From the NCBI GenBank assembly GCA_947184155.2, contig CAMXCT020002035.1:437428-501427 (forward strand): 64,000 nt of DNA. Direction: 5' to 3'. The notes beneath the pieces were generated by a model that was given only the letters and a program-made list of their open reading frames with translations, had not been told where the DNA came from and did no database searches. Source of the DNA: Cladocopium goreaui (Eukaryota > Sar > Dinophyceae > Suessiales > Symbiodiniaceae). Below, one piece after another: positions 4,501 to 59,965 of this stretch (position 1 is its first letter; each line of letters opens with the position of its first letter). A program made the position numbers and the translations under genes.

Positions 4501-6869
4501 CACCACTTTGTCACACACCATCGTTCACCACACCATCTTTCGCACACAGCTTTGTCACACACCATCTTCCACATACAACTTTGTCACACACAACTTTGTT
4601 TTACTTGTCGGTCCTCCACCACATCCTTTGTCTTTCCTTCAGGTGCTCATTATTGGAAGAAGTTGCCTTGTGGGGCTATCCGGCCCTTTAATTGGATTTT
4701 TTTTCTGACATCCATACCCCAAACACCCATATGTTTCAATGTACAACATTTTTGTCTAGCGCTGCATTCCCCTGACATTTTTTGAGGCAACCCGCCAGGA
4801 AAGGTTTACATCAAAAGTCCACCTGCTACCAGAACAAACATTACTACTGGTCACGGGCGGAACTTGCCTGAGACCGGTACAAAGATGGAACCACCGCAAC
4901 AAAGTAAAATTCCTAAGCACTTTGAAGGGGCCTGTGCAATTGTCTGCCAACTTGCGGATTCTGTCCAACACAAGATCCACAATCTCCTTCCCGATGGTGT
5001 AGTGCCCCCTGCAAAAATAAAGGCAATAAGAGACATAGGAAGAGGAGGAAGAGGTGGGAGGAGTAGTGGTGCTGGTGGTGGTGGCACTAATACTACTAGT
5101 ACTAGTACTAGGTACTACTAGGTACTACTAGGCACTACTAGGCACTACTAGGCACTACTAGGCACTACTAGCTACTACTAGCTACTACTAGCTACTACTA
5201 GCTACTACTAGCTACTACTAGCTACTACTCCTCGCTCCTACCTCCTTACTCCTTACTACTTACTACTTACTACTTACTACTTACTACTTACTACTTACTA
5301 CTTACTACTTACGACTTACGACTTACGACTTACGACTTACGATTACTACGACTACTACGACTATACTACGACTACTACGACTACTACGACTATACTACGA
5401 CTACTACGACTACTACGACTACGACGACGACTACTACTACTACTACTGCTACTACTATACTACTACTACTACTACTACGACGACGACGACGACGACGGCT
5501 ACGACTGCTACGACTACGGTGACTACGACGACTACGACGACTACGACGACTACGACGACTACGACGACTACGACTACGACGACTACGACGACTATACGAC
5601 TACGACGACTACGACAACTACGACGACTACGACGACTACGACGACTACGACAACTACGACGACTACGCCGACTACGACGACTACGACGACTACGACGACT
5701 ACGACGACGACTACGACTACGACTACGACGACTACGACGACTACGACGACTACAACGACTACGACGACTACGACGACTATGACGACTACGACGACTACGA
5801 CGACTACGACGACTACGACGACTACGACGACTACTACCACTACTACCACTACTACCACTACTACCACTACTACCACTACTACCACTACTACCACTACTAC
5901 CACTACCACTACCTCTACCACTACCTCTACCACTACCACTACCTCTACCACTACCACTACCTCTACTACTATACCTCTACTACTATACCTCTACTACTAT
6001 ACCTCTACTACTATACCTCTACTACTACCTCTACTACTACCTCTACTACTACCTCTACTACTACCTACTACTACTTCCTACTACTACTACCTACTACTAC
6101 TACCTACTACTACTACCTACTACTACTACCTACTACTACTACCTACTACTACTACCTACCACTACTACCTACTACTACTACCTACTACTACTACCTACTA
6201 CTACTACCTACTACTACTACTACTACCTACTACTACTACTACTACCTACTACTACTACCTACTACTACTACCTACTACTACTACCTACTACTACCTACTA
6301 CTACCTACTACTACCTACTACTACCTACTACTACCTACTACTACCTACTACTACCTACTACTACCTACTACTACCTACTACTACCTACTACTACCTCCTA
6401 CTACCTACTACTACCTACTACTACCTACTACTACCTACTACTACCTACTACTACCTACTACTACCTACTACTACCTACTACTACCTACTACTACCTACTA
6501 ATACCTACTACTACCTACTACTACCTACTACTACCTACTACTACCTACTACTACCTACTACTACCTACTACTACCTACTACTACCTACTACTACCTACTA
6601 CTACCTACTACTACCTACTACTACAACTACAACTACTACGACGACGACTACGACGACGACGACGACTACGACGACTACGTCGACGACGACGACGACTACT
6701 ACTACTACCACTACCACTACCACTACCACTACCGCTACCCCTACCACTACCACTACCACTACCACTACCACTACCACTACCACTACGACTACGACTACGA
6801 CTACGACTACGACTACGACTACGACTACGACTACGACTACTACTACTACTACTACGACTACTACTACTT

Positions 6870-6948
<79 letters not shown>

Positions 6949-6976
6949 GACTTTCGACTTTCGACTTTCGACTTTC

Positions 6977-7067
<91 letters not shown>

Positions 7068-8191
7068 CACTTGCCACTTACCACTTGCCACTTACCACTT
7101 ACCACTTAACACTTACCACTTACCACTTTCCACTTACCACTTTCCACCTTCCACTTACCACTTTCCACTTACCACTTACCACTTACCACTCACCACTTAC
7201 CACTGACCACTCACCACTTACCACTTTCCACTTTCAACTTACCACTTACCACCACCACCAGCACTACTACTTCTACTACTTCTACTACTTCTACTACTTC
7301 TACTACTTCTACTACTTCTACTACTACCTGCTACTACCTGCTACTACTACTACGGCTACTACTACTACTACTACAACTACTTACCCTACTACTAACTACT
7401 ACTACTACTAACTACTACTACTACTACTACTACCTACTACTACTACCTACTACTACTACCTACTACTACTACCTACTACTACTACCTACTACTACTACCT
7501 ACTACTACCACCTACTACTACCACCTACTACTACCACCTACTACTACCACCTACTACTACCACCTACTACTACCTACTACTACTACCTACTACTACTACC
7601 TACTACTACTACCTACTACTACTACCTACTACTACTCCCTACTACTACTACCTACTACTACTACCTACTACTACTACCTACTACTACTACCTACTACTAC
7701 TACCTACTACTACTACCTACTACTACTACCTACTACTACTACCTACTACTACTACCTACTACTACTACCTACTACTACTACCTCCTACTACTACCTCCTA
7801 CTACTACTACCTACTACTACTACCTACTACTACTACCTACTACTACTACCTACTACTACTACCTACTACTACTACCTACTACTACTACCTACTACTACTA
7901 CCTACTACTACTACCTACTACTACTACCTACTACTACTACCTACTACTACCACCTACTACTACCACCTACTACTACCACCTACTACTACCACCTACTACT
8001 ACCACCTACTACTACCACCTACTACTACCACCTACTACTACCTACTACTACTACCTACTACTACTACCTACTACTACTACCTACTACTACTACCTACTAC
8101 TACTACCTACTACTACTACCTACTACTACCTACTACCTACGACCTACGACCTACGACCTACTACGACCTACTACTACTACTACTGCTACTA

Positions 8192-8245
<54 letters not shown>

Positions 8246-11200
8246 CTACTACTACTACCTACTACTACTACTACCTACTACTACTACCTACTACTACTAC
8301 CCTACTACTACTACCCTACTACTACTACNNNNNNNNNNNNNNNNNNNNNNNNNNNNNNNNNNNNNNNNNNNNNNNNNNNNNNNNNNNNNNNNNNNNNNNN
8401 NNNNNNNNNNNNNNNNNNNNNNNNNNNNCTGCTGCTGCTGCTGCTGGTAGTAATAGTAGTAGCAGCAGTAGTAGTAGTTTCTGTTGTTGTTGTAGAACTG
8501 GTAGTAGAAGTGGTAGTAGAAGTGGTGGTAGAAGTGGTAGTAGTTAGTAGCACGTAGTTGTAGGTAGTTGTAGGTAGATAGTAGTTGTAGATAGTAGTTG
8601 TAGATTGTAGATAGTGTGGAAGTAGGTAAAAAATAGTAGGTAAAGTACTACTGTAGATAAGAGTAAAAAATAAGAGTAGATAGTAGGTGTGCAACCTAGT
8701 GAGGTTGTGGTTGGTGTTGGCGGCGTGGTTGATGTCGTTGGTGTTTTTGGATGTCGCTGGCGTCGTCGGCCGTTGGTGTTGTGGGTGACGTCGGTGGTCG
8801 GTGTTGTTGGCGCTGTCGGTGTTGTCGGTGCTGTCGGTGTTGTTGTTGGTGTTGTTGTTGTTGTTGCTGCTGGTGGCGGTGGTGTCGGCGTTGTTGTTGT
8901 TTTTGTGATGTCGGTGTCGGTGTCGGCGTTGTTGATGTTGATGTTGGTGTTGATGTTGATGTTGTCGTTGTCGTTGTGTTTTTTTGGTTGTTGTTGTTGT
9001 TGTTGCTGTTGATGTGGCTGTTGTCGTTGTCATTGTTCTTGCTCTTGCTCTTGCTCTTGCTCTTTTTGTCGCTGCTATTGGTTGTCGGTGGTGTCCGTGT
9101 TGGAGATGGGGTTGGTGCTAGCGTTGGTGGTGGTGGCGGTGGCGGTGGTGTTGGTGGTGGTGGTCGTCGTGGTGGCATTGTTTCTTGTTTTGCTAGTGTT
9201 ATCTTTGTCGCTGTTAACTTGTTATTGCTGTCTTTGTTGTTATGGTGGTTGTTTTTACTGTTGTTGCTGCTGCTGTTGCTGCTGCGATGGACTGCTGACA
9301 GCGTCAAAAGGCAGATACCAGGTTCCAAAAATGCTACACGCCTAAAAATGCAGACCTTGCCTGGCAAAGTTATTGGCCGCATCCTCCTTTCCCGAAATCA
9401 ATTGCTCAGGGTGGAAAAGTTGGCGATAGGTGCCAGTGCGAACTTCGTCCACCACCTGGGGTGCCCGAAAAATCTTTGGGGGTATGCGGTATGCTGGTGG
9501 ATTCTGGAAAACATGTAGAAAAATAAATGCCAACTTTGAAAAACGCCCTGCTGAGACACAATCAAAAAAGCTGAACCCCCCACAGCCAATACGAGGAACA
9601 GTTGGCTCCAGGTCAACCATGACGCATCTGGGTACATGCTTTCCAGCACCCGTCTCTGAGAAGAACCTGGCTGCTGCCATCGAACGGCCACCATCATGGC
9701 ACAAAAAGGTATAAACAAGAAGCGCTCCAATTTTTGCCTCTATCTGCCTGCCTCTCCCTGCCTCTGCCTCCTCTTGCCTCTGCCTCTCCCTGCCTCTACC
9801 TGGCCGTGCCCTGCCTCTGCCTCTTGTCTCTGCCTCTGCCTGCCTGCCTCTGCCTGCCTCTTGCATACAAATCTTTCACATCTACACGAAGGCCGGGACC
9901 CAACCATAATTCCCTCCACTTCAACCTCTTGCAAAGCCGTAACTAAAAACACCAGATGGCCCGTGCAGGCGCCAGTCACCATCACCGGCACCGCTCCCTA
10001 TTTTCACGAAAAGAAACGCAACAGCAGATTGGCCAAGCAACGTGTTGAAAGCATCATCACCTCCCCCAATTGTCTTGTCAGACGGCATCTGACCATCAGG
10101 CTGAATACCATGTTCCAGGCAAAAGAGTTCCCAGCAGGCATTGCCAATCTGCACACCTGACCGTCAGAGCTTCCATTCTAGCCCAGCTCTCGGCCACAGC
10201 ACACGCAACATTGGCTGCGTACTTAATGTTCTTCACAGATAGCAACTGATGTCAATAGTGAAAAGGACTGCCCACTGATGGCAAAGTAACGTCAGCAATG
10301 CAAGCAGTGAACCGTAGACATGAACATGCTGACGTACAAGCACATGTATATAATTGTTAGAATTCAGGATTATCATGAATTATCATGGTTTACCCCTAAC
10401 TTGCAGGACCTTTGCACTTTCTTGCAGGCAAGTCCTTCAGCAAGGGGGCCACATACAGTGCAGGGGAGTAGCTCGCGGGAAGTAGCGATCTGTGTACAAA
10501 GATGCTTGAAATAACTCAGAAGATCTCTCTACAAGGGCCTTTACAAGAACACGCAAGATCTGAATACAAAAATGTGCTTTAAATGAACTAAGAGGACTCA
10601 CAATATCTTTACACAAGGACCGCTTTCAAGAACTCGCAGAATCTTTGCACAAGGGTCGCCACAAGCCTCTGTACAATTGTCCTTCAAGGTGAATGACAAC
10701 CTCCGTGCCACGAAACATGAACTTGAGGCATCCGAAGTACTGCGCCGGCCACACAAAAATGATCAGCAGGCACGGAATCCAAAAGTGACGACAACCTCAC
10801 ACAACGACCAATTTGAAACTTTCAAAACAAAGTTCAAAATTTTCATGAGGAAGAAATATTGTAACTTTTGCTGCTGTCTGAGCCATGCTGCGCACCCTCC
10901 TCGCTGTTCCACTGCTATGGGCAACACATGCTACACAAACACTCTGGGGAAAGCCTCAAATTCGGCGATGTCAGTTTCAAGTCTTAATTTCGTGTCTGCA
11001 TACGCTGATGGTTGCCCGTTCTGTTCTTTTGCTGTGTTGGTTCCTCACGGGCTTGTGTTCTCGAAAATAGCATGTTTGAAAAAAGGCATTTTGCTGTGCG
11101 AAAAAAAAGAATAAAAAATGCAACAGATTTAATCTATGACCTCTGACCAGTCAGCTGTGTCGATATTCGGGTGTAGTGTTTGGGTCTGGCTCTGTGGCTT

Positions 11201-38323: not shown

Positions 38324-38328
38324 TCTAT
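38324..38328. repeat. Target site duplication TCTAT, left
   Basis: TCTAT abuts the left end AGCTAG of the viral element and matches 44846-44850. One more T is shared (TTCTAT) if the last T of the right end is counted as target. Confidence 0.7.
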
Positions 38329-38465
38329 AGCTAGAGGGGCTCGGCCCCCAGTTCAATGCTTAACCCCACCATCATAATCATCACATACATTTTATCATAA
38401 ATCACCGTATAAAACCATAACAACCTCATCATATCAACCCATCTCATCCATCTCATCCATCTCAT
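38329..38465. repeat. Left terminal inverted repeat of viral element
   Basis: Starts AGCTAGAGGGGCTCGGCCCCC. Its reverse complement aligns through about 130 bp with the right end, with identical stretches such as TTGATATGATGAGGTTG and AAATGTATGTGATGA. Confidence 0.8.
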
Positions 38466-39508
38466 CCATTAAAAAAAATATATATAAATCATTTTGATCA
38501 AGGAAATGATACTAACGTATTCAAACTAAATTCAAGTAATCAAATACAATTGCTGGGTGGTATTGAAACATCCTTTATGTATGAAAATGCTTTTGTTGAT
38601 TTGGTTAGTTACAATGTGTTAAGAATTAGAAACACTGAAAGTGCTGATAATGGCATTATTTCATTTGGTGTTGGTGATACACTGGATGTCTTCCAGATAT
38701 TCAAGAGAGGCATAGCATCATCAGTTGCATTATCAAAATCTCAGGTTTTATGTAATTCATTTGATAGTTTTGCTGGTGATAATGATGTAGTCTTCAAAAG
38801 AAACGGGGTTGATTTTTTAGACTTCAAGGTCCTAATGTTGTGGTAAATGGTTCAGAAAATTTACTGTTGATAATTGATGGTAATGTAGGTATTTCTTCAA
38901 GTTGGATGTTTGCTAATACTTTTGCCAATAGGTCAGCAAATAGTGATACTGATTTCAGGGGTTGTATATCTGGAGGTTTAGCAAGTGGAAATGTGTATAT
39001 GACTTGCAAACACGTGCCTGAAAGATTACAGATTAAAACTGATGCCAGAGTTAGTGAAGGTAAAATGTTTCATTTAAATACAACTGCTTCAAAATAATGT
39101 TATATCCATAGTTTTGTCGAAAGTAATATTAAGATATTGTCATTGGAAAATAATGATACTTCAGGTCAAAATCGTATTTACTGTATTGGTAATTTGGTTG
39201 TAGGCATGTCAGGTAGTGTTTTTACTTTTCATCAAAATACAACAGTTGTAGCGGGGAGAACTCTTAGCGGTGAGCTCAAAACACAAGTGATACAACTAAA
39301 AAAATATGACATCAAAAATGTTGAACTTAATTTTACAGATATAGTAAAGCAAATAGAACCAAAAACATTCAAACTGAAAGATGAAAAGGACCTAGGTATA
39401 ACCAAAAATCACAGCGGGTCTATAGGAGGTGAGATAGAAAATCTAATACCAAAAGAATTTGAAAACATAGTCAATAAAAATGATGAAAACATCAAAATGT
39501 TAAATTAT

Positions 39509-39517
39509 GTAAAATTA
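39509..39517. repeat. 9-bp target duplication GTAAAATTA, left
   Basis: Identical to 40546-40554. Both copies encode the same VKL of the interrupted S74 domain, which is what a true target duplication predicts. Confidence 0.85.
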
Positions 39518-39539
39518 GACGCAACGCCCACCATTTGCC

Positions 39540-40130
39540 CCACAGTTTACATGGGGTAGGCTGGGGTGGGGTGGAATGGAGTGGGGTGGGGATGTTAACG
39601 TTCCCTCGACCATGTTCCCTCGACCATGCACAAGATGTTGATGCTGCGCTCTTATGGGGTGCATGGGGTGGGCTGGGGTGGGGATGTTATAACGTTCCTT
39701 CGGCCACGTTCCCTCGACGTTGCACAAGATGCTGATGCTACGCTCACATGGGCTGGGTGGGGTGACGCGTGGGGTGGGGTGAGGTGGATGGGGTGGGGGG
39801 TGGTGAGGTGGGGTGGGCGTGGGGATTGTCCACGTTCCTTAGATATGCTTCCTGAACCTTTGACAAGATGTTGATGCTACGCTCACTTGGGGTGGGGTGG
39901 GGTGGGATGTTAACGTTCCTTCGACCACGTTCCCTCGTCCTTTCACAAGATGTTGATGCTACGCTCACATGGGGTGGGGTGGGGTGGGCTGGGGATGTTA
40001 TAACGTTCCTTCGGCCACGTTCCCTCGACCTTGCACAAGATGTTGATGCTACACCCACATTTGGGTGCGGTGGGGTGGGATGGGGCGATGATAACGCTCT
40101 TTCGACCTTGCGCTAGACTTTGATGCTGCG
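39540..40130 (+). repeat. GGGGTGGGGT + ACGTTCCTTCGACC minisatellite
   Basis: Units carry AACGTTCC, CACGTTCCCTCGACC and CAAGATGTTGATGCTACGCTC with variable G-rich spacers. G runs could form quadruplexes. Confidence 0.88.
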
Positions 40131-40317
40131 CCCAAGATGATCTAATTATCATGGTTTAAGGTGGGGTGGGGTGGGTGCATGTTGCAGCAATTTGCTAGGA
40201 TTCTGTTAGAGCTGTTCGTTTTTGCAACGGTTTGTTAGGATTTTGTTTGAACTGTGAGTGCAACCAAAAGTGCTGGAACTGTGCAATTTGAACCGATTTT
40301 CAAGGATTCTGTTAGAA

Positions 40318-40425
40318 GACGACGATGATCATACCAATGATGCTGTTGATGATGATGATGGTGATGGTGATGGTGATGGTGATGGTGGTGGTGATGATGA
40401 TGATGATGATGATGACGATGACGAG

Positions 40426-40460
<35 letters not shown>

Positions 40461-40500
40461 GGATGATGATGATGATGATGATGATGATAATGATAATGAT
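40318..40500 (+). repeat. (GAT)n/(GAC)n microsatellite
   Basis: Near-pure GAT with GAC and GGT variants, inside the TIR transposon. The poly-Asp frame through it is fortuitous. Confidence 0.93.
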
Positions 40501-40545
40501 CCTGTCGAACTCTTCCAGAAGCGCGGCAAATGGTGGGAGTTGATC

Positions 40546-40554
40546 GTAAAATTA
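40546..40554. repeat. 9-bp target duplication GTAAAATTA, right
   Basis: Matches 39509-39517. Confidence 0.85.
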
Positions 40555-40718
40555 TCATCTGTCCTTTGGCGTGCTGTAAAAGAACAGCAAATAAAAATAG
40601 AGCATTTGGAAGCTTCCGTTTGTGAATTACAAGAAGCAATGAAAGAGTTATATAATGAAGCCTAAACCTAAAGCCACAGCTAAAAAAAATCTAAGGACAA
40701 AAAATCTAATAATTTAAT

Positions 40719-40940
40719 ATGGGAAGTAAGCAATCAACAGGTCAAAATACGTGTATGGATGAAATCAGTAATATAAATGAAGATGAGTTAGATATTAGTA
40801 AAATAAATAGTCTACAAACAACATCTATAAAAGAAATATATAATTTAATAAAATCAAATATATGGAAAGTAAAAAATCTGATAAATTATATTATAAACTA
40901 CCAGCAATTCAACTTCGTAGTTGGAGTTTGGTTTTTATAA
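40719..40940 (+). CDS. Small viral-element protein with N-myristoylation-like start
   Basis: Intact 73-codon frame starting MGSKQSTGQN, which fits an N-myristoylation signal (Gly2, Ser/Thr at position 6 or 7). It continues with acidic and Ile/Asn/Lys-rich sequence and a hydrophobic end (FNFVVGVWFL). It begins 54 bp after the fibre gene on the same strand and abuts the oppositely oriented ATPase gene. No family recognised; a membrane-associated virion or assembly role is speculation. Confidence 0.5.
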   Translation: MGSKQSTGQNTCMDEISNINEDELDISKINSLQTTSIKEIYNLIKSNIWKVKNLINYIINYQQFNFVVGVWFL

Positions 40941-40961
40941 TATGATTTAATGATACTATTA

Positions 40962-41737
40962 TTAATCTGTGAATTGAATATAAGCATTAAAGTTTTTCAT
41001 AAACATATTATTCAAATCTGATTGGAGAGGGTTTATATACAAAAAGTTGTGAGGTTCAACAGTGGCAACTTCTTATATCTGATATATAAGTTTTTTGTTT
41101 CTTGTAAGTTTGCTTTTCTTGGTAAAGCGCGTAATTCTTCTTGTAGTAAATCTATTTCTTTAAAATTCTGTATATAAAAGGAAAAATGAGTGGCATTTAC
41201 TCTAATCAGTATATTCAGTGCATTGCATTTCTGAACTGAAGTTACAACAGAAATTCCATTGTGGCGACCTCTTACATCAACTGAGTTTAAAAGTTTGGAA
41301 TATCTTGCTATTTTGGGGTCATCCGCTATATCATCCAGTACCAGCAATATAGGAAACAATTTTCTCATCTTATGTTTTTTGCTGTATTCAGTTGTTTTGT
41401 GTTGTGCGTCTATTATCTTTTCTAAATCTTGGACGTTGAATTCTTCAAACCAACATTTTTCTTTATCAGTATCCACTTTCTTTTGGTGTTTTGTGTATTT
41501 CTTAACCGGCAACCAAATACTATCAACTTCAATTGAAGGAGACCAGATAAATACCCTTTCAAATACTTTTTTGTAGATGTCTAATATCATATTTGTCAAT
41601 AGCACTGACTGGCCAGAACCAGACGGTCCGGCTATAATTGCTCTGAATGGAACTTGTGGAACATTTGGATATTTTTATTGTGGGAATGTATAGTGTATTT
41701 CATCCATGGGTTGTACATTAGGTGAAATATGTTTCAT
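40962..41737 (-). pseudogene. Packaging ATPase (A32/FtsK-HerA-like), degraded
   Basis: DNA-packaging ATPase of the kind found in virophages, polinton-like viruses and NCLDVs. Starts MKHISPNVQPMDEIHY. A TAA stop interrupts it at 41675-41677. The P-loop follows as IIAGPSGSGQSVLL: the invariant Lys is Gln (codon 41609-41611, one base from Lys). The main body reads IWSPSIEVDSIWLPVKK, Walker B LLVLDDIADD, RGRHNGISVVTSVQK with a sensor-like Gln, and RVNATHFSFY. Near 41062 a frameshift moves the C-terminus (EVATVEPHNFLYINPL) to another frame ending at 40962. Family is clear; the gene is dead. Confidence 0.82.
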
Positions 41738-41818
41738 TATTAATATTTAGAAAAGAATTTATATAATATATATTAATATATTATTGATATGGAACTTCAT
41801 TAAAGAACAGTAAAGGAC

Positions 41819-41846
41819 AGACTCGCAGAGGCTCGCGTGCGAGTCT
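41819..41846. other. Hairpin, 9-bp perfect arms
   Basis: AGACTCGCA (41819-41827), a 10-nt loop, TGCGAGTCT (41838-41846). GC-rich in AT-rich surroundings, between the divergent ATPase and Zn-ribbon genes. Confidence 0.85.
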
Positions 41847-41886
41847 AAACAGAATGAAGAAGCATACAATCCCCATAAGAAATCGT

Positions 41887-41907
41887 CGCCAAGTCAAGGA
41901 CTTGGCG
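41887..41907. other. Hairpin, 9-bp perfect arms
   Basis: CGCCAAGTC, loop AAG, GACTTGGCG. Lies 40 bp from the previous hairpin, in the same divergent intergenic region. Confidence 0.85.
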
Positions 41908-41999
41908 CGCCTTTAAAACATCCTAAGATTTATAATTAGATGTTATCTTATAATATTGGTAATACTATTTTACCAAACAATTTTATCTAATCATAAATA

Positions 42000-42175
42000 A
42001 TGAGTATGAGGAAATCATCGAGAATGTTGAGACCCTTATTGAAGATGATAATAAATTTCCAGTAGTTGAAGATGGTAGAATTAAGATGCTCTTAAAGATG
42101 TTTCTTGAATTTATTAATTGTTTAATCAACTATCTAGTATATAATAATGCCACCAAAAAGACCAAAAAACAGTGA
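42000..42175 (+). CDS. Small acidic-to-hydrophobic frame, possible gene remnant
   Basis: A frame without its own ATG reads YEEIIENVETLIEDD, then MLLKMFLEFINCLINYL, and ends in Lys-rich ATKKTKKQ at 42175, overlapping the next gene's start by 29 bp. An ATG at 42000 lies in another frame. Composition and overlap suggest a small viral gene with a lost start. No family recognised. Confidence 0.3.
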
Positions 42176-42638
42176 GTAAACTGAAAAAGCAACCAATCCC
42201 TGAAAATGTTGAGTTGTCATCAAATGATGAACCCACCACAGTTAATTTCAATAAAGAACAAGAACTAACCACTAAATTCATCATTTTTGAGTGTCCTATA
42301 TGTAAGGGTAAATTACAGCTAAGAAATGAAATTGAAATCAACCCAAAAGGAATAACTTGTCGTTGTAATCCTTGCTCCTTCAAAACAACAAAAAATTATA
42401 ATACAATGAATGTTAATAAAGATGATGAAGGGGGGGATTACATTAGAAAGCGAAGACCATTAGCATTCAATTCAGTTTCAACAGAATTACCACCCCACCA
42501 ACTGAAGATGAAAAACATAGAAATGATATGATAAAAGATGTAATGAATATGGCTCCAAAGAGCCCTATAGGGTCTAAAGACCCAAATACACCACGCAGTC
42601 ATTTAAAAAACTTCATTAACAGATTTAGATTAATATAA
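42147..42638 (+). pseudogene. Zn-ribbon protein of viral element, frameshifted
   Basis: Starts MPPKRPKNS and shifts frame near 42172 into SKLKKQPIPENVELSS. The core holds a CPIC...CRCNPC metal site (CX2C then CXCX2C, 17 residues apart). At a CCCC run near 42494 the frame shifts again to PPTEDEKHRNDMI and ends HLKNFINRFRLI at 42638. The basic start, Zn site and viral context suggest a nucleic-acid-binding or late-transcription-factor-like protein; this is inference. Confidence 0.5.
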
Positions 42639-42711
42639 TAATGGAGTTTTCAATAATTAAATAAAAATGAAGAAAAATCTAAATAAATAAATGTATATAT
42701 ATATATATCTT

Positions 42712-42940
42712 ATGAAAGCTGAAGAGATTGATTCTAATAAGCCAAATATTTGAAAAAGTGAAGGGTATCAACAACTTACAAAATGTCATTCTATCCAAGT
42801 TGAATGAACTGACAGAATGTAAAGATGTTGAGGATAAGGAAGAACAGAAAAAGAAGATGGAGGAGATTTTTGAAAAAAAACTATCGGAAAGCCACGAGGT
42901 ACTTGGGAACGGAAGCAACAGCAATATTTTTAAATGGTAA
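42712..42940 (+). pseudogene. Coiled-coil protein of viral element, probably frameshifted
   Basis: ATG at 42712 gives MKAEEIDSNKPNI then a stop. One base out of phase the sequence continues FEKVKGINNLQNVIL, a Lys/Glu-rich coiled coil (EEQKKKMEEIFEKK), ending at 42940. A single indel near 42751 would join them. No family recognised. Confidence 0.4.
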
Positions 42941-43040
42941 ATTCTGGAAAAATAAAGAACCGCATAAGTAAAACTTTAGAATACTACCATATGTGTAAAA
43001 ATGAAATAGGAGAATATATTATAAATATACTCCCTTCAAA

Positions 43041-43720
43041 ATGATTTACAAAATGTCTTATGAATTTACTTACAGAAAAAACAACATAAAGCAATATATT
43101 ATAATGTATAAAAACGTACATTCAAAAGACTATTCCAGTGGTAAAATCTATATCATAAGAAACAACATCAACGAAAGCACATGCAGTATATAGGATGCAC
43201 TACACAAACCTTAAGTCAAAGAATGGCACAACATAGAAGCCATATCAATGCCAAAAAGAAACTTACCAATCTATCAACATTGATGAAAGAACTAGGTACT
43301 GAGAATTGTTATATAGAACTAATTTAATATTGTTGTTGTAGCACATCAGAAGAACTAAGGAAACGAGAGGGAGAATTCATAAGAGCTCAAAAACCAGATT
43401 TGAATAGAAAAGTCGAATGTAGAACCAAACAAGAGTATTACCAACAAAATCAAAATAAAAAACTAGCAAGGAGCAAAGCAATATACCAAAAGAATAGGCA
43501 GAAGTGCATAGAACGAGCCATAAGAAACCACGCAAACAATTCAAAACGATACAAAGAACAAGCCAAAAAACACTTTCAAAAAAAGCGTAAATTTCAACAT
43601 CATTTTTGTTTAATATGCAACCGTTCATTGTTTGGAGGAACTAAGGCAAGGCACGAGAGGAGCAAAAAACACCAAGACAACCTTAAGCTGAAACTAGAAG
43701 AAGAGGATAAACAACGATGA
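43041..43720 (+). pseudogene. GIY-YIG endonuclease with C-terminal Zn finger, degraded
   Basis: Homing-type nuclease family common in virophages and large DNA viruses. The N-terminal part has KIYIIRN (the GIY strand). Near 43185 the frame shifts and YIGCTTQTLSQRMAQHR (YIG strand and helix with Arg) follows. A TAA at 43325-43327 interrupts, then in the same frame come ELRKREGEFIRAQKPDLN (catalytic-Glu region), a Lys/Tyr/Asn-rich linker, and a CLIC...H....H finger (43610-43670). The stop at 43720 may itself be a frameshift: the other frame continues DENKDLVEIQHLFHDEK, which resembles the duplicate at 44120-44165. Confidence 0.72.
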
Positions 43721-43824
43721 GAATAAAGACCTTGTTGAAATTCAACATTTATTTCATGATGAGAAAATATAGTAAAATTTCATAATAATATTATTATTAA
43801 AATATTATTAGTGAAATTTGGTTT
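43704..43824 (+). repeat. Diverged direct repeat, copy 1 (viral element)
   Basis: About 120 bp beginning AGGATAAACAA and ending TTAGTGAAATTTG; partner at 44099-44218. Covers the end of the GIY-YIG gene and its 3' flank. Confidence 0.75.
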
Positions 43825-44098
43825 CTAAAAGTATCAGGGAAATTTTGGAATGTATCAGGGGATTTTCTGAAACAATCAGGGATTTTTCTGTGTCATTGCC
43901 AGATTTTTCTGCGTCATTGCCTGATTTTTCTGTTAAATGGTCTGATTTTGGCTTCAAAAATGAATTGGATAAAAAAATCAACACAGGCTATGTCCGTGGC
44001 AGTGTCAGGATTTCCTAGGTTTTCGGAAACAATCAAAAAATCCGATGTTTAATACAAGAATGGACCTATTAGAGAAATCAATAAACAAACATATAGAC

Positions 44099-44218
44099 AG
44101 GATAAACAAAGAAGAAAATACAGAACTGGTTGAAATTCACCATACACTTTATGATGAGGAGGTATAGGTAAGTTTCATAATAATATTATGACATATTGTT
44201 AGTGAAATTTGTTGTTTT
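44099..44218 (+). repeat. Diverged direct repeat, copy 2 (viral element)
   Basis: Partner of 43704-43824 with roughly 75-80% identity by eye. It closes a 35-codon frame starting MDLLEKSINKHIDR at 44058. Confidence 0.75.
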
Positions 44219-44610
44219 CAAGTGGATTGCCCAAAGGTTGAAGTTATCTGACAGCTACACATTACCCAAGGCTGGGTATTTTTACCCAAGGGAGCTGGGT
44301 GTTTTTGTTGTCTAGATTGCTCCATTGAGTTGTCTAGATGGTTAAACTCAATATATGAGAATTCTAAATGGTAGTGTTTTATGATGAATAAGATTAAGCC
44401 ATAACATTGTAAAGTTTTTTATATAATCTATGTTGATTATCCCCATATTTCTAATAGAAAAATTCGATTAAGAATATGTTTTAAGATATTTTCTAGGAAT
44501 GATGAAATGGATGAGGTAAGATGATGTATAAGCTTTGATGAAAATGTCTATATGATATATACCGATGATATATTATATACAGTAATGTTGTGTTATGATT
44601 TGGATGAGGT

Positions 44611-44845
44611 GGATGATATGAGTTGATATGATGAGGTTGTTATGGTGTTATATGATGACGTATGATGAAATGTATGTGATGAAGGGTGGTGGGGATGAGT
44701 ATGAACTGGGGGCTGTTAGCTTTGATGAATTGTTTTGTGATGTTTTATATGGTGGTGGGGTGGTATGCTGTTGTAGAATTTGTATGTTTGCTGGGGGTGG
44801 GGATGAGTATGAATTGTATGAATTGGGGGCTGAGCCCCGCTAGCT
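44611..44845. repeat. Right terminal inverted repeat of viral element, with internal duplication
   Basis: Ends GGGGGCTGAGCCCCGCTAGCT at 44845. The terminal motif has an inner partial copy near 44698-44720, so the right TIR carries an extra segment of about 100 bp compared with the left. Confidence 0.78.
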
Positions 44846-44850
44846 TCTAT
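44846..44850. repeat. Target site duplication TCTAT, right
   Basis: Matches 38324-38328. Confidence 0.7.
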
Positions 44851-45073: not shown

Positions 45074-46919
45074 TCAGGTACCATATTCTCCTTGAGCGCC
45101 TTGTTTCTGCACGTTCTCCACAAAAAACAAGAAGTCTCTCAGGGCAGCTCTCACTGCCGGAGGAATCTTCTTGCGACCAGACTGATTCGACTGACAGCGA
45201 CGAGACTCGTGCAACTGAAAGGCCAGCTTGGTGGCAACCTGATGCGACAGCCGTGGATTCAACAAGCGGAGCCAAAACGCTACGTTGTTCTCCTGCAGCT
45301 TTGGCAGTCTGGTGTCACTAGTCGCTTCCACCAAGACAGCTGTCTCTATGTACATCACCCGAGACCCGTCCTTCACGGATTCAGGAATCTCAATCATCTG
45401 GTTCAAAGTGTCAAGGACTGCGAGGGCGTGTAAACAGCTGTCCAAGTGCCAGTTGTCCATCTGAGACATGTCTACTTGGAAGTTTCCCTCCGCGGCTCTA
45501 GTTGCAAACTCCAGCAGCGATTGAAGTGTGTCTTTCGACTCTTTCAACTCTGCGCTGTCAATAGTTGGACGTTCAGTCAGTTGCTGCATAACCATTGTTG
45601 TTGTTGCAGCTAGGGCCTTGAACGAATCTTGGCCCACATCTATCCCCAAATTCGAGGCAGTTTTAGTCCATGCCATGATGACAGCCAGCGGTACTGACGG
45701 AGAATGAATGGTCTCATTCTCCTCTGTTGGATGTTTCCTGCGATGCATTTCTGCATCTTTGGCACAATGCATTAGCATCAAAGAGGCTGCCGACAAGGAT
45801 GCGGTCGCTTCCGCTGTCAATCGCTTCAAATCCTCATCGTTCAGCTTCTCCACTGACTCCCAGTGTTCTGCGGCAAGTTGTAGGCGCTGGCACAGCACTT
45901 CAGCGAACATAGTGAACCCAGGTAGATCTGCACCTGACGCTCTACGTCGGCGTGCCAACCGTCCCAGCGCCAGCAGCATCAAGGCCAAATCGCGGGTGGT
46001 GAAGCGATCGCGGTCGCTGCCAGCGAAACGTTGGGCGTCCAGAAGGTCCAGCTGCAGATGGGCAAGGTCACAAAGCATCGTTTCGGTGCACCGAAAGATG
46101 GCTTCATCCAGACTTTCAGATGTGCCTAACCAATTCCATCCTCTGGCAATCTGTCCAAGCGCGTTCAGAGCAAGAAGTATATCGCGGCTGGTGAAAGTTT
46201 TAGCGACCTCCCCGCTGTTCAAAGCCTTTAAGCTCCCTCGTAATGCACTTCTCAGTGCAATCTCCTCTTCGCGCTCCGTAGAGTCAGGAGGGCGGTCCAG
46301 AGTAGACCTGAATCAGAAACAACAAAAGAACCATAATTTGCTTGATATTGCTTGATACTTCGAGAAGCATAAAAAAAACACAATTAAGTGATATCGTGTG
46401 ACGATCTATTGGATATCTTTTTGTGCCCAAAAAAACATCGTCATAGTCATGTTCTGCCAAACTCACAATTTTGCCGCAAGGGAACGCATCAATCCGGCCC
46501 AGTGCTCTCAGCACCCGCAGCGCTGTGTCAGGCGTCTGCTCATCCCACTTGGCGTATGCCTCGAAAGCTGCCAAGCTGCTCCTGTCAAGGCCAGGTGCTC
46601 CCACGCGCCAGGAGAGGAGATTTCGAAGGGCCACATACAGCTCACGGGCTCGAAATTTGGGCATCGCCTGGAATTGTTGAGGATGCACATGACCAATCTT
46701 GAAGCTGCAGTGGTATCCAAATTCTTGAGTCATGAACCCTCCCAGCACAGGTGGCACCCGGCCTCACCCAATCGTTCTGCCACTTGCATGAAGAACTCAT
46801 CGTCCAGGAGCTGTCCACGCGCTGCCAAACGAGGCAGCTCAGTAAGTTCAGCCAGAGACAATCCTGGCAGCGCAGAGGACAATTGCGCCACCATCCGATG
46901 CCGCTGCCGCGAGGAAAGC
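45074..46919 (-). CDS. Alpha-helical-repeat protein (three exons seen, about 529 codons)
   Basis: Exons on the minus strand: 46919-46766, 46667-46465 and 46307-45074 (stop). The joined frame is continuous if both introns (98 and 157 bp) start with GA; a GT start two bases earlier would break the frame at both. Acceptors have good pyrimidine tracts and a G after AG. The protein is Leu/Ala/Arg-rich helical repeats: ELYVALRNLLSWR, LRVLRALGRID, RDILLALNALGQIAR, RDLALMLLALGRLARR. This pattern resembles the FASTK-like/OPR-type RNA-binding repeat proteins common in alveolate organelles. No RAP domain is visible, and function is not established. The first exon starts at an acceptor (CTCAG), so the true start lies upstream and was not found. 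Confidence 0.7.
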
Positions 46920-51904: not shown

Positions 51905-54880
51905 CTTAAATTCGGCTCCGCCGGCTCCACACGAGTGGCTTGCCCTACGAGCGTCCCAGAGCGACTAGAGCTCTATGGTGAGGCGCGCCCCAAACCGCCG
52001 ACCCTCCGACGCCGGGCCCCCAAAAACACGAAAAATCCTTCAGGAGGGTGGGGGAGAGCTTTTTGGCCGGAATCCGGGTCACTCATAAGCGTCTCCAAGA
52101 GCAAAAGGCCCCCCCCCCGTTTTGAGGGTACCTAAAATCGGAAAAAAGCGCCGTTTTGACACATTTTTCGGACGATTTTTCGCTTTTCGAAAGTCACAAA
52201 ATGCTGTAAATTACAGCATTTTTGCGTTTTAACGTCTTTTGCGGGAGCCATGCAAAAACGGAGAAAATGCTGTAAATACCAATACTTTTTGGACCCGAGA
52301 TGCACAAAACACTGCAAATACCAGTGTTTTTGAAAGCACAGCAAAAAAACACTGTAAATTACAGCATTTTTGGCGGGTTGATCGCAAAAAATGATGGTCT
52401 TCACAGGGTTTTTGCAATTTCAAGAAAACGTGGAAGGCACGAAACACTGTAAATAGCGGTGTTTTGGCCACTTTTGGACGCCGAAACGCTGGTATTTACG
52501 CAGTTTTTTGCCCGTGGCGGCGCCAAACCCCTGTAAATTACAGCATTTTCTTCCCTTTTTGAGCCGATCTTTTGCGTTGATGAACGCAAAAAATGCTGGT
52601 ATTTACGCGTTTTTAAAAAAATCGAAGATCGTGACGTGAACGAAACCCTGTAAATAACAGTGTTTTAGCCACTTTCGGGGACTAAAACTGTGGTATTTAC
52701 GCGGGTTCTTGCCATCTGACAGCGCAAAATGCTGTAAATTACAGCACTTTGTGCGCTGTTTATGTTCAATTTTTTAACCTGCGATGCTTTCACCTGTTCT
52801 TTGCATTCTTCCACAAGAAACAATGTTGCAGATTGAAACTGGACGACAGCGTGACCCAAAAGAAAGCTGGATGGAGGAGTCGCACAGAAGCTTTTGCACA
52901 TACAGGGGCTTTTACACAGAGAAGTCTTTACACAAAGGAACTTTTTACACACAGAAGGTTTTACACAGAGAAGTCTTTACTCTAAGGACCTTTTGCACAC
53001 AAACGTCTTTACACACAGAAGCTGTTACATAAAGAAGTCTTTACACAGAGGGCTTTTTACACACAGACGCGTCTGCACACAGAAGCTTTTACACAGAGAA
53101 GCCTTCACACAGAGGAGCTTTTACACACAAAAGCATTTACACACAGCAAGCTTTTACACACACAGGGGCTTTTGCACAGAGAAGTCCTTACACAAAAGGA
53201 GCTTTTTACACACAGAAGATTTTACACAGAGAAGTCTTTACTCCAAGGAGCTTTTGCACACAAACGTCTAGGAGCTTTTTCACACAGAACTTTTTACACG
53301 AAGAAGGCCTGACAGAGAGAGCTTTTACACACAGACGCGTTTGCACACAGAAGCTTTTACACAGAGAAGCCTTTACACAGAGGAGCTTTTAGACACAAAA
53401 GCATTTACACACAGCAAGCCTTTACACACACAGGGGCTTTTACACAGAGAAGTCCTTACACAAAGGAGCTTTTTACACGGAAGGTTTTACACAGAGAAGT
53501 CTTTACTCCAAGGAGCTTTTGCACACAAACGTCTAGGAGCTTTTTCACACAGAACTTTTTACACGAAGAAGGCCTGACAGAGAGAGTTTTTACACACAGA
53601 CGCGTTTGCACATAGAAGCTTTTACACAGAGAAGCCTTTACACAGAGGCGCTTTTACACACACAAGCATTTGCACACAGCAAACTTTTACACACACAGGG
53701 GCTTTTACACAGAGAAGTCTTTACACAAAGGAGCTTTTTACACACGGAAGGTTTTACACAGAGAAGTCTTTACTCTAAGGAGCTTTTGCACACAAACGTC
53801 TAGGAGCCTTTACACACAGAAGCTGTTACACAAAGAAGTCTTTACACAGGGGGCTTTTTACACACAGACGCGTTTGCACACAGAAGCTTTTACACAGAGA
53901 AGCCTTCACACAGAGGAGCTTTTACACACAAAAGCGTTTACACACAGCAAGCTTTTACACACACAGGGGCTTTTACACAGAGAAGTCTATACACAAAGGA
54001 GCTTTTTACACACAGAAGGTTTTACACAGAGAAGTCTTTACTCTAAGGAGCTTTTGCACACAAACATCTAGGTGATTTTTCACACAGAACTTTTTACGCG
54101 AAGAAGTCTTTACACAGAGGGGTTTTTACACACAGACGCATTTGCACACAGAAGCTTTTACACAGAGAAGCCTTTACACAGAGGAGCTTTTAGACACAAA
54201 AGCATTTACACACACACAGTGGCTTTTACACAGAGAAGTCTTTACACAAAGGAGCTTTTTACACACAGAAGGTTTTACACAGAGAGGTCTTTACTCTAAG
54301 GAGCTTTTGCACACAAACGTCTAGGAGCCTTTACACACAGAAGCTGTTACACAAAGAAGTCTTTACACAGATTTATAGCTTTCACACACAGACGCGTTTA
54401 CACACAGAAGCTTTTACACAGAGAAGCCTTTACACTTTACACAGAAAATTTTTACACACGGAAGCTTTTACACACAGCGAAATCTTTACACAGACGTTTC
54501 ACACAGAGAAGCTTTCACACACAGAAGCTTTTACACAAAGAAGTCTTTACACAAAGTGGTTTTTACACACAGAAACTTTTACACACAAAAGCTTTTACAC
54601 AGAGAAGTCTTTGCACAGAGGCGCCTTTACACGAAGTAACAAGTTGAAATTGGCAGCGGTTCTTCGGGAAAAACCCTTGGCAGGAGCTTTCGGGAACTCA
54701 CTTGCTCCCCAAAAAAGCCGTCTATTTCCAACAAAGTTCCTATTCCATGAACTTTTTTCAAAAAACATAAGGAATATATTTCTGAAGCAGGTCCCCATCC
54801 AAAAGCTTTCAAGCCCGCACTGCGATGAAATGGAGGGTCGAGAAATCCGGCGGAGCCGACGAGGGGCGTCAGCCCTTAAA
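51905..54880 (+). repeat. Higher-order repeat unit, copy A
   Basis: Starts TTCGGCTCCGCCGGCT. Then comes a CGAGCGTCCCAGAGCGACTAG block, a palindrome array (52198-52760), a TTACACACAGAAGCTT minisatellite (52885-54630), an end block CTTTCGGGAACTCACTTGC, and ATCCGGCGGAGCCGA. Copies B and C match closely; B and C differ mainly in minisatellite length and truncation. No genes. Confidence 0.93.
52198..52760 (+). repeat. Array of near-palindromic hairpins, copy A
   Basis: About a dozen hairpins spaced roughly 45-60 bp. The first has perfect 12-bp arms AAAATGCTGTAA and TTACAGCATTTT around one A. Another has arms AAAACACTG and CAGTGTTTT (52306-52330). The core TAAATTA or TATTTA is common to all. Confidence 0.85.
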
Positions 54881-57237: not shown

Positions 57238-59965
57238 GCGCTTAAATTCGGCTCCGCCGGCTCCCCACGAGTACGCTGACAAATGCGTCACGAGCGTCCC
57301 GGAGCGACTAGAGCTCTAAGGTGAGGCGCGCCCCAAGCCGCCGACCCTCCGACGCCGGGCCCCGAAAAACACCAAAAATCCTTCAGGAGGGTGGGGGAGA
57401 GCTTTTTGGCCGGAATCCGGGTCGCTCATAAGCGTCTCCAAGAGCAAAAGGCCCCCCCCCCCGTTTGGAGGGTACCTAAAATCGGAAAAAAGTGCCGTTT
57501 TGACACATTTGTCGGACGATTTTTCGCTTTTCGAAAGTCACAAAATGCTGTAAATTACAGCATTTTTGCGTTTTAACGTCTTTTGCGGGAGCCATGCAAA
57601 AACGCAGAAAATGCTGTAAATACCAATACTTTTTGGACCCAAGATGCACAAAACACCGCAAATACCAGTGTTTTTGAAAGCCAAGCAAAAAAAACACTGT
57701 AAATTACGGCATTTTTGGCGGGTTGATCGCAGAAAATGCTGGTATTCACAGTGTTTTTGCAATTTCAAGAAAACGTGGAAGGCACGAAACACTGTAAATA
57801 GCGGTGTTTTGGCCACTTTTGGACGCCGAAACGCTGGTATTTACGCAGTTTTTTGCCCGTGGCGGCGCCAAACCCCTGTAAATTACAGCATTTTCTTCCC
57901 TTTCTGAACCGATTTTTTACCTTGATGAACGCAAAAAACGCTGGTATTTACGCGTTTTTCAAAAAATCGAAGATCGTGACGTGAACGAAACCCTGCAAAT
58001 AACAGTGTTTTAGCCACTTTCGGGGACTAAAACTGTGGTATTTACGCGGGTTCTTGCCATCTGACAGCGCAAAATGCTGCAAATTACAACACTTGGTGCG
58101 CTGTTTATCTTCAATTTTTTAACCCGCGATGCTTTCACCTGTTCTTTGCATTCTTCCACAAGAAACAATGTTGCAGATTGAAACTGGACGACAGCGTGAC
58201 CCGAAAGAAAGCTGGATGGAGGAGTCGCACAGAAGCTTTTACACATACAGGGGCTTTTACACAGAGAAGTCTTTAAACAAAGGAGCTTTTTACACACAGA
58301 AGGTTTTACACAGAGAAGTCTTTACTCTAAGGAGCTTTTGCACACAAACATCTAGGAGCCTTTACCCACAGAAGCTGTTACACAAAGAAGTCTTTACACA
58401 GAAGGCTTTTTACACACAGACGCGTTTGCACACAGAAGCTTTTACACAGAGAAGCCTTCACACAAAGGAGCTTTTACACACAAAAGCATTTACACACAGC
58501 AAGCTTTTACACACACAGGGGCTTTTACACAGAGAAGTCCTTACACAAAGGAGCTTTTTACACACAGAAGGTTTTACACAGAGAAGTCTTTACTCTAAGG
58601 ACTTTTGCACACAAACATCTAGGAGCCTTTACACACAGAAGCTGTTACACAAAGAAGTCTTTACACAGAAGGCTTTTTACACACAGACGCGTTTGCACAC
58701 AGAAGCTTTTACACAGAGAAGCCTTCACACAAAGGAGCTTTTACACACAAAAGCATTTACACACAGCAAGATACAGCAAGCTTTTCCACACACAGGGGCT
58801 TTTACACAGAGAAGTCCTTACACAAAGGAGCTTTTTACACACAGAAGGTTTTACACAGAGAAGTCTTTACTCTAAGGAGCTTTTGCACACAAACGTCCAG
58901 GAGCTTTTTCACACAGAACTTTTTACACGAAAAAGGCCTGACAGAGAGAGTTTTTACACACAGACGCGTTTGCAGATTGAAGCTTTTACACAGAGAAGCC
59001 TTTACACAGAGGAGCTTTTACACACAAAAGCATTTGCACACAGCAAGCTTTTACACACACAGGGGCTTTTACACAGAGAAGCCTTTACACAAAGGAGCTT
59101 ATTACACACAGAAGGTTTTACACAGAGAAGTCTTTACTCTAAGAGGCTTTTGCACACAAACGTCTAGGAGCTTTTTCACACAGAACTTTTTACATGAAGA
59201 AGGCGTGACAGAGAGAGTTTTTACACACAGACACGTTTGCACACAGAAGCTTTTACACAGAGAAGCCTTTACACAGGGGAGCTTTTACACACAAAAGCAT
59301 TTACACACACAGGGGCTTTTACACAGAGAAGTCTTTACACAAAGGAGCTTTTTACACACAGAAGGTTTTACACAGAGAAGTCTTTACTCTAAGGAGCTTT
59401 TGCACACAAACATCTAGGAGCCTTTACACACAGAAGCTGTTACACAAAGAAGTCTCTACACAGATATATAGCTTTCACACACAGACGCGTTTACACACAG
59501 AAGCTTTTACACAGAGAAGCCTTTACACTTTACACAGAAAGTTTTTACACACGGAAGCTTTTACACACAGTGAAATCTTTACACAGACGTTTCACACAGA
59601 GAAGCTTTCACACACAGAAGCTTTTACACAAAGAAGTCTTTACACAAAGTGGTTTTTACACACAGAAACTTTTACACACAAAAGCTTTTACACAGAGAAG
59701 TCTTTGCACAGAGGCGCCTTTACACGAAGTAACAAGTTGAAATTGGCAGCAGTTCTTCGGGAAAAACCCTTGGCAGGAGCTTTCGGGAACTCACTTGCTC
59801 CCCAAAAAAGCCGTCTATTTCCAACAAAGTTCCTATTCGATGAACTTTTTTCAAAAACATAAGGACTATATTTCTGAAGCAGGTCCCCATCCAAAAGCTT
59901 TCAAGCCCACACTGCGATGAAATGGAGGGTCGAGAAATCCGGCGGAGCCGACGAGGGGCGTCAGC
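57238..59965 (+). repeat. Higher-order repeat unit, copy B
   Basis: Same order as copy A: TTCGGCTCCGCCGGCT start, palindrome array at 57542-58100, TTACACACAG minisatellite at 58225-59730, and the same end block. Confidence 0.93.

Follow-up and report, generated by a model that had tools for sequence, protein, structure and literature searches.

How does a dinoflagellate genome come to hold an island of viral genes, set between well-matched inverted repeats, that has neither a capsid nor a polymerase of its own? The locus lies on contig C2035 of Cladocopium goreaui, in a stretch of 64 kb that is called the window below; coordinates given without a contig are positions in it. A preliminary description, made from the letters alone, had proposed a Polinton-type element with three possible origins: a minimal relative, a deletion derivative, or a satellite dependent on another virus. 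Our analysis points to the second. The element is very probably a decayed, non-autonomous derivative of a dinoflagellate Polinton, formed by internal deletion, and its ends, its missing genes and the position of the cut in its fibre gene can be read against relatives found in the same genome.

A script check of the ends places the element at 38329-44845 (6,517 bp), with a copy of TCTAT on each side. It is delimited by the following features, in which C4068 denotes a second short element of the genome.

38324..38328, no strand: target-site duplication, left copy TCTAT (script check of the ends)
38329..38499, plus strand: left terminal inverted repeat (AGCTAG...), not as long as those of the relatives, closest to the integrase-side end of C4068
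44573..44845, minus strand: right terminal inverted repeat, carrying some 117 additional columns close to its tip, closest to the left end of C4068
44846..44850, no strand: target-site duplication, right copy TCTAT (script check of the ends)

Polintons start with AG, and both tips of the element read AGCTAG. The repeats contain an ungapped inverted pair (38378-38487 and 44573-44682) of 110 nt that is 81% complementary, and in the right repeat the additional columns separate the tip from this inner arm. A gapped local alignment of the two ends scored 149, whereas 500 single-base shuffles never exceeded 34, and 500 random pairs of stretches from the window gave 71 at best and 36 next. The AT-rich island of about 6.5 kb that had been proposed is evident in the composition: leaving aside a later insert, the element has 31% G+C, against 45% in the 5 kb to its left and 51% in the 5 kb to its right. 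Aligning the repeats and their flanks, the check suggested at the outset, thus placed the repeats far above chance and a duplication at both ends. Of the two duplications considered, TCTAT or TTCTAT, only the 5-bp version survived a reading of the ends, where it is exact. It falls within the 5-6 bp of Polinton-type integration, as do TATAC in C4068 and, as weak support, TATAT in the relative on C259. Within the right repeat, some 130 bp inward of the outer tip, an imperfect version of the tip occurs again (GGGGGCTGTTAGCT near 44718), as though through duplication of an end or the arrival of another one. It was rejected as the true end, its flank being TTGAT and not TCTAT.

Between the repeats, the gene order from left to right is the C-terminal half of an S74 fibre, an A32-type packaging ATPase on the opposite strand, a Zn-ribbon protein, a coiled-coil-like protein and a GIY-YIG nuclease, and all five of these recognisable genes are broken.

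38500..39517, plus strand: C-terminal half of the S74 fibre gene, interrupted by a frame change (near 38814) and a stop (39097)
40546..40710, plus strand: last 55 residues of the fibre, by homology
40719..40940, plus strand: 73-aa open reading frame (ORF), from the ORF list
40965..41746, minus strand: A32-type packaging ATPase pseudogene (Pox_A32 PF04665, 2e-13, above the cut-off)
42163..42590, plus strand: Zn-ribbon protein remnant with frame changes, homologous to the L033 protein at the same place
42734..43035, plus strand: remnant of a small coiled-coil-like protein (a label of our own reading), with a frame change near 42870
43104..43687, plus strand: GIY-YIG nuclease remnant, with a frame change near 43181 and later a stop
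43722..44570, plus strand: right-end segment common to C522 (L003), covering most of a 91-nt direct repeat

The ATPase, fibre and nuclease named in the preliminary description are all borne out. Against the 863-aa frame of L037, the fibre covers residues 456-860 in three pieces of 76%, 73% and 64% identity (3.7e-144), and the S74 domain (PF13884) reaches 21.2 bits in the window, marginally below the cut-off of 22. The gene is disrupted in three ways, by the frame change, the stop and an insert of 1,028 bp. The ATPase has an in-frame stop immediately before 41674 and a frame change between 41087 and 41192, and its Walker A motif reads GPSGSGQS where L035 and P0003 have GPSGSGKS, so that Q replaces the lysine; it found no match in the phage collection. 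The GIY-YIG pieces had no direct Pfam match of their own; they match the L036 protein at 2.7e-30, which is itself PF01541 at 4e-12. The Zn-ribbon label is likewise our own reading, and the L033 counterpart of that remnant has 868 homologues. Weak Pfam matches in the window (Lar, DUF1644) were set aside as noise. The 91-nt direct repeat (81%; 43704-43794 and 44099-44189) spans the tail of the GIY-YIG gene and an AT-rich stretch, and is present in C522 too.

What the element lacks is as informative. No match to the capsids or integrases of three relatives (L001, an IMGVR sequence of 17.4 kb, and C259 and C561 of the same genome as the window) was found in the 64-kb window, and none to the polymerase-labelled proteins of these three and C4955. 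The polymerase labels follow motifs for L001 and C561 and our own reading for C259 and C4955. Of the genes expected of a Polinton, the A32/FtsK-type ATPase is therefore present, though broken, and the window gave no match for an RVE integrase (PF00665, found in C259 and L001), for a protein-primed DNA polymerase B as judged from the four relatives, or for a double jelly-roll capsid or penton. The preliminary description had likewise noted the absence of capsid and polymerase. As to the virophage-like part of the proposal, for which a virophage-type capsid and protease would be the marks, the capsid types of L001, C259 and C561 are absent from the window, no virophage-specific profile search having been made.

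Full-length relatives in the same genome carry the missing capsid and integrase. Searches of the 1.17-Gb assembly (6,202 contigs) led to C259, at 150482-170776 of its contig, an element of 20,295 bp that starts with AGCTAG and has 673-bp repeats at 98.5% identity. Its order is a 425-aa protein, capsid, lipase-like protein, penton-labelled protein, fibre, ATPase, Zn protein, coiled coil, GIY-YIG, methylase, a large ORF, a helicase-like protein, a second GIY-YIG and an RVE integrase. The capsid matches that of L001 at 7e-69, the fibre has the S74 domain (PF13884) at 1.1e-13 and the integrase is PF00665 at 8.4e-13. A search for full-length relatives with a capsid gene, as had been suggested, was thus answered within one genome, and the assignment to the Polintons holds, with AGCTAG relatives carrying both RVE integrase and capsid. 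On C4955, a fibre frame of 863 aa has 82% DNA identity to the window fibre and is followed by GIY-YIG, capsid and a large ORF like that of C259 (7e-40). Some labels among the relatives were weakened on inspection: the penton has no family support, the lipase-like protein reaches Esterase at 0.0044 only, below the cut-off, and the helicase of C259 matches AAA_30 at 3.9e-5, also below the cut-off, and a PHROG exonuclease V at 9.2e-9. A sequence search of the PDB gave nothing useful for the capsid, the L001 polymerase-labelled protein or the C259 helicase-like protein.

The capsid family is well represented: of 300 candidates, 83 matches were scored, 65 of them, by our count, without an internal stop and none on the window contig. 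P0122, 97% like the C259 capsid, gave a model of low confidence (mean pLDDT 59) that matches double jelly-roll capsids, the best being PBCV-1 (6ncl, 1.1e-15), with TM-scores of about 0.5. At 63 of the 144 ATPase loci tallied, a capsid from the 83 scored lies within 20 kb; among the 90 best-matching ATPase loci this holds for 62, and the window is one of the remaining 28. Loci without a scored capsid nearby may be short copies, contig ends, or places with unscored capsids or capsids of another type. Since other capsid types exist, such as that of C561, the 81 loci without a scored capsid nearby are not a count of deletion derivatives.

The place of the deletion was located with a query made of the repeat and the start of the fibre (38329-39508), for which 40 of 167 candidates were scored. 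Among the 50 matches obtained, only the window's own locus spans the joint. In eight other loci (C255, C4955, C6168, C2115, C4357, C1794, C898 and C80) homology to the fibre sets in at query base 172, which is 38500 in the window, and the repeat matches at C4068 and C5468 end by query base 173. The window fibre begins at about residue 456-461 of 863 in L037, the protein match starting from 38484 and the DNA match from 38500, and the fibre gene of C4955 continues upstream of the joint position. Repeat homology among the other ends extends over some 270-310 columns, so the cut falls inside the left repeat. At the other side, a 1.25-kb fragment on C522 shares the arrangement of GIY-YIG, some 850 bp and repeat at 82%, and this recurrence indicates that the right end is probably natural. 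With the fibre joint, the likeness of each repeat to the same end of C4068 and a right end that is probably natural, a single internal deletion explains the element: both ends are kept, an internal block is lost, and parent-like elements exist in the genome.

The likeness to C4068 deserves closer attention. That element (L038, 168140-173632 of its contig, 5,493 bp) shares the repeats of the window element and is flanked by a separate 5-bp duplication, TATAC. It retains remnants of a helicase-like gene and an integrase, 47-70% identical to C259, and no capsid; its pieces found nothing in Pfam. The tip pattern, allowing up to 3 mismatches, occurs in 11 places in the genome against none for a reversed control, and among these 11 places only C2035 and C4068 show a facing pair. 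The left repeat of the window is 83% identical to the integrase-side end of C4068 and 75% to its own partner, and the right repeat is 82.6% identical to the other end of C4068 and 73% to its own partner. The divergence of the two repeats was not used to date the insertion, each being nearer the same end of C4068 than its partner; to judge from these identities, the two ends probably differed already before the window element inserted. L040 and L041 were rejected as full-length carriers of the window repeat, each showing one end only. L039, on C5468, duplicates most of the C4068 element at about 95%, with a right flank that by eye is shared.

Several observations weigh against an internal-deletion origin. 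No full-length element with the exact repeat family of the window, hence no exact parent, was found in the genome, and the parent is therefore inferred from pieces on different contigs. C259 differs in gene order and has unrelated inner repeat sequence, and its flanking TATAT, which sits in TA-rich DNA aligning beyond the tips (73-79%), gives weak support for a duplication. The large ORFs of C259 and C4955 matched no Pfam or PHROG polymerase family and not the L001 protein, and their polymerase label is weakened by this want of profile support. The grouping of repeats by same end is modest: 9 sites favour it, 5 and 2 favour the alternatives, and the bootstrap is 70. The left flank is single-copy in the genome, so that no empty site can be read. 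Finally, PMC10120064 warns that stops and frame changes in such elements can be assembly errors; this is countered here by P0002, from a separate public record, whose ATPase frame is likewise shortened to 185 aa and differs in a single residue.

With these reservations, a sequence of events for the internal-deletion derivative can be proposed. It would start from a full-length Polinton carrying terminal repeats, an RVE integrase, replication genes, capsid, fibre and ATPase; the best-resolved relative of this kind measures 20.3 kb. One internal block would have been lost, from inside the left repeat to about fibre residue 455, leaving both repeat tips in place, now flanked by the 5-bp duplication. 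The RVE integrase of a full-length copy may have acted in trans on the AGCTAG tips to insert the element, and the repeats would formerly have served as replication ends. A host Mutator-like element later entered the fibre gene, and stops and frame changes accumulated in all five genes. The tips and the exact 5-bp duplications of the window element and C4068 fit insertion by an RVE integrase. Published work associates duplications of 5-7 bp with elements that use a tyrosine recombinase or RVE (PMC7805220) and gives 6 bp as typical of RVE (PMC12220804). Whether the deletion preceded integration, a shortened genome having moved in trans, or followed it in place, the odds are about even. By analogy with the defective genomes of other protein-primed viruses, we tentatively suggest, at less than even odds, that shortened Polinton genomes might arise in replication and that intact copies would provide the integrase that inserts them in trans, in which case the window element and C4068 would be two fossils of the process. 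Shortened copies that keep both ends and a target duplication bear on how Polintons spread, as viruses, as transposons, or carrying defective copies along.

The alternative that survives best, improbable as it is, is a distinct lineage of minimal virus or satellite that evolved as a 5-kb element and depended on a helper for capsid and replication. The ATPase, fibre and nuclease are retained between good repeats, and helper-type elements are plentiful in the genome. Against it, the fibre gene is cut mid-way at the left repeat, and no second locus with the same joint appeared among the 50 matches from the 40 candidates scored, a result that does not extend to four partial repeat matches of a separate search (C446, C2575, C5208 and C374). 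Nor is a living satellite supported, with five of five recognisable genes broken. Among the three origins first proposed, it is the deletion derivative that stands, on a fibre cut at the left repeat where the fibres of relatives run on.

Less probable still is a two-part genome, with the packaging and fibre genes carried by the window element and the helicase-like and integrase genes by C4068. The shared repeats, the sizes of about 5.5 kb and the complementary gene sets speak for it; no capsid or penton-labelled gene shows up in either element, the matches of C4068 to integrase and helicase-like protein are scattered through several frames, and the C4068 length seems by eye to take in host-like sequence, which makes the match in size look accidental. 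That chance inverted repeats enclose unrelated host DNA is scarcely credible: the CATCTCATC-type microsatellite in bases 88-134 of the left repeat does occur elsewhere, but the end alignment, the exact duplication, the rarity of the non-microsatellite tip, the viral genes inside and, already by themselves, the paired tips and duplication of C4068 refute it.

The age of the fibre insert relative to the element follows from a comparison with L037.

39509..39517, no strand: 9-bp duplication GTAAAATTA, left copy (L037 alignment)
39518..40545, no strand: insert of 1,028 bp, with a G-rich minisatellite and a GAT/GAC repeat
40546..40554, no strand: 9-bp duplication GTAAAATTA, right copy (L037 alignment)

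L037 aligns on either side of the insert and has GTAAAATTA once where the window has it twice. The insert and its 9-bp duplication are thus missing from L037, so the insert postdates the element, whose earlier length was about 5.5 kb, as had been estimated. A 9-bp duplication is a mark of Mutator-like elements, and by this duplication we judge the insert to be Mutator-like. It has 18-bp inverted ends (39522-39539 and 40525-40542), formed by the inverted pair CAACNCCCACCATTTGCC. Allowing up to 2 mismatches, this sequence has two occurrences in the window, where chance would give a mean of 0.04. The exact CAACNCCCACCATTTGCC pattern was found in none of the 45 other loci compared, except L002, which is the window's own locus, and no transposase was seen in the insert.

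The crowding of protist genomes by capsid-bearing Polintons is already known. Homologues of the window ATPase and of the relatives' capsid bear Skav names, which we take to stand for Symbiodinium kawagutii and which point to a symbiodiniacean host. Endogenous dinoflagellate Polintons and their decay have already been described in PMC10120064 and PMC12721341: the former has 'Dino group' capsids of Polintons and polinton-like viruses (PLVs), and the Fig. 1 legend of the latter names a 21-kb Symbiodinium kawagutii polinton. The window element resembles these in its lower-G+C island, end repeats and viral genes; unlike them, the window copy is 6.5 kb long, without capsid or integrase, and has five broken genes. 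OmPLV of Oxyrrhis marina, presented in PMC12721341, is another element of a dinoflagellate with A32 ATPase and GIY-YIG, and its copies of about 5 to 27 kb are fragmented and decaying, like the window element. It differs in using a tyrosine recombinase and in showing no target duplication, where the window element has a 5-bp duplication and relatives with RVE. Other papers mention six capsids of Symbiodinium microadriaticum that 'may be degraded' (PMC7805220) and Maverick elements in Breviolum (PMC11071213). Among titles and abstracts, subscription papers aside, we found none on repeat-bounded Polinton deletion derivatives in dinoflagellates. L001 (IMGVR_UViG_3300028392_002905, 17.4 kb) shares with the window element an ATPase at 46% identity, an S74-type fibre and GIY-YIG; it differs in that its gene set is virus-like and includes RVE, a capsid and a polymerase-labelled protein of 1,286 aa, which has the motifs DANNLYG and YTDTDS and matched no polymerase profile. 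C4068, so close to the window element in repeats, duplication and length (5.5 kb), differs in holding helicase-like and integrase remnants in place of fibre and ATPase.

The genome also holds a second Polinton group, at 80001-98000 of C561 (L045, L046), with open frames for RVE, capsid, a 354-aa ATPase and fibre. Its polymerase-labelled protein of 1,310 aa is 52.6% identical to that of L001 and has the same motifs, DANNLYG and YTDTDS; those encoded at 2235-6092 of L001 and 1879-5805 of L046 have an endonuclease VII-like mid-stretch (PHROG, 1.2e-4 and 7e-6). Counted by eye, 21 ATPase matches share one identical score, which suggests a recent burst of near-identical copies. Full-length, near-identical and dead copies coexist in one genome, which makes it a good test bed for the study of Polinton spread.

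Elsewhere in the window, a host-like open frame of 382 aa (45074-46222, minus strand) ends some 230 bp beyond the right end of the element; a host gene may therefore lie close by. A 3.2-kb ACT/TACTACTAGC repeat array at 5086-8328 has an extreme GC skew (-0.85 and -0.96 at 6-8 kb) and is adjoined by further long arrays at 2.8-4.6 kb. Two more arrays, at 52883-54612 and 58228-59705 and about 5.3 kb apart, have in common a 267-268-bp unit of CACAGAAGCTTTTACA-type repeats.

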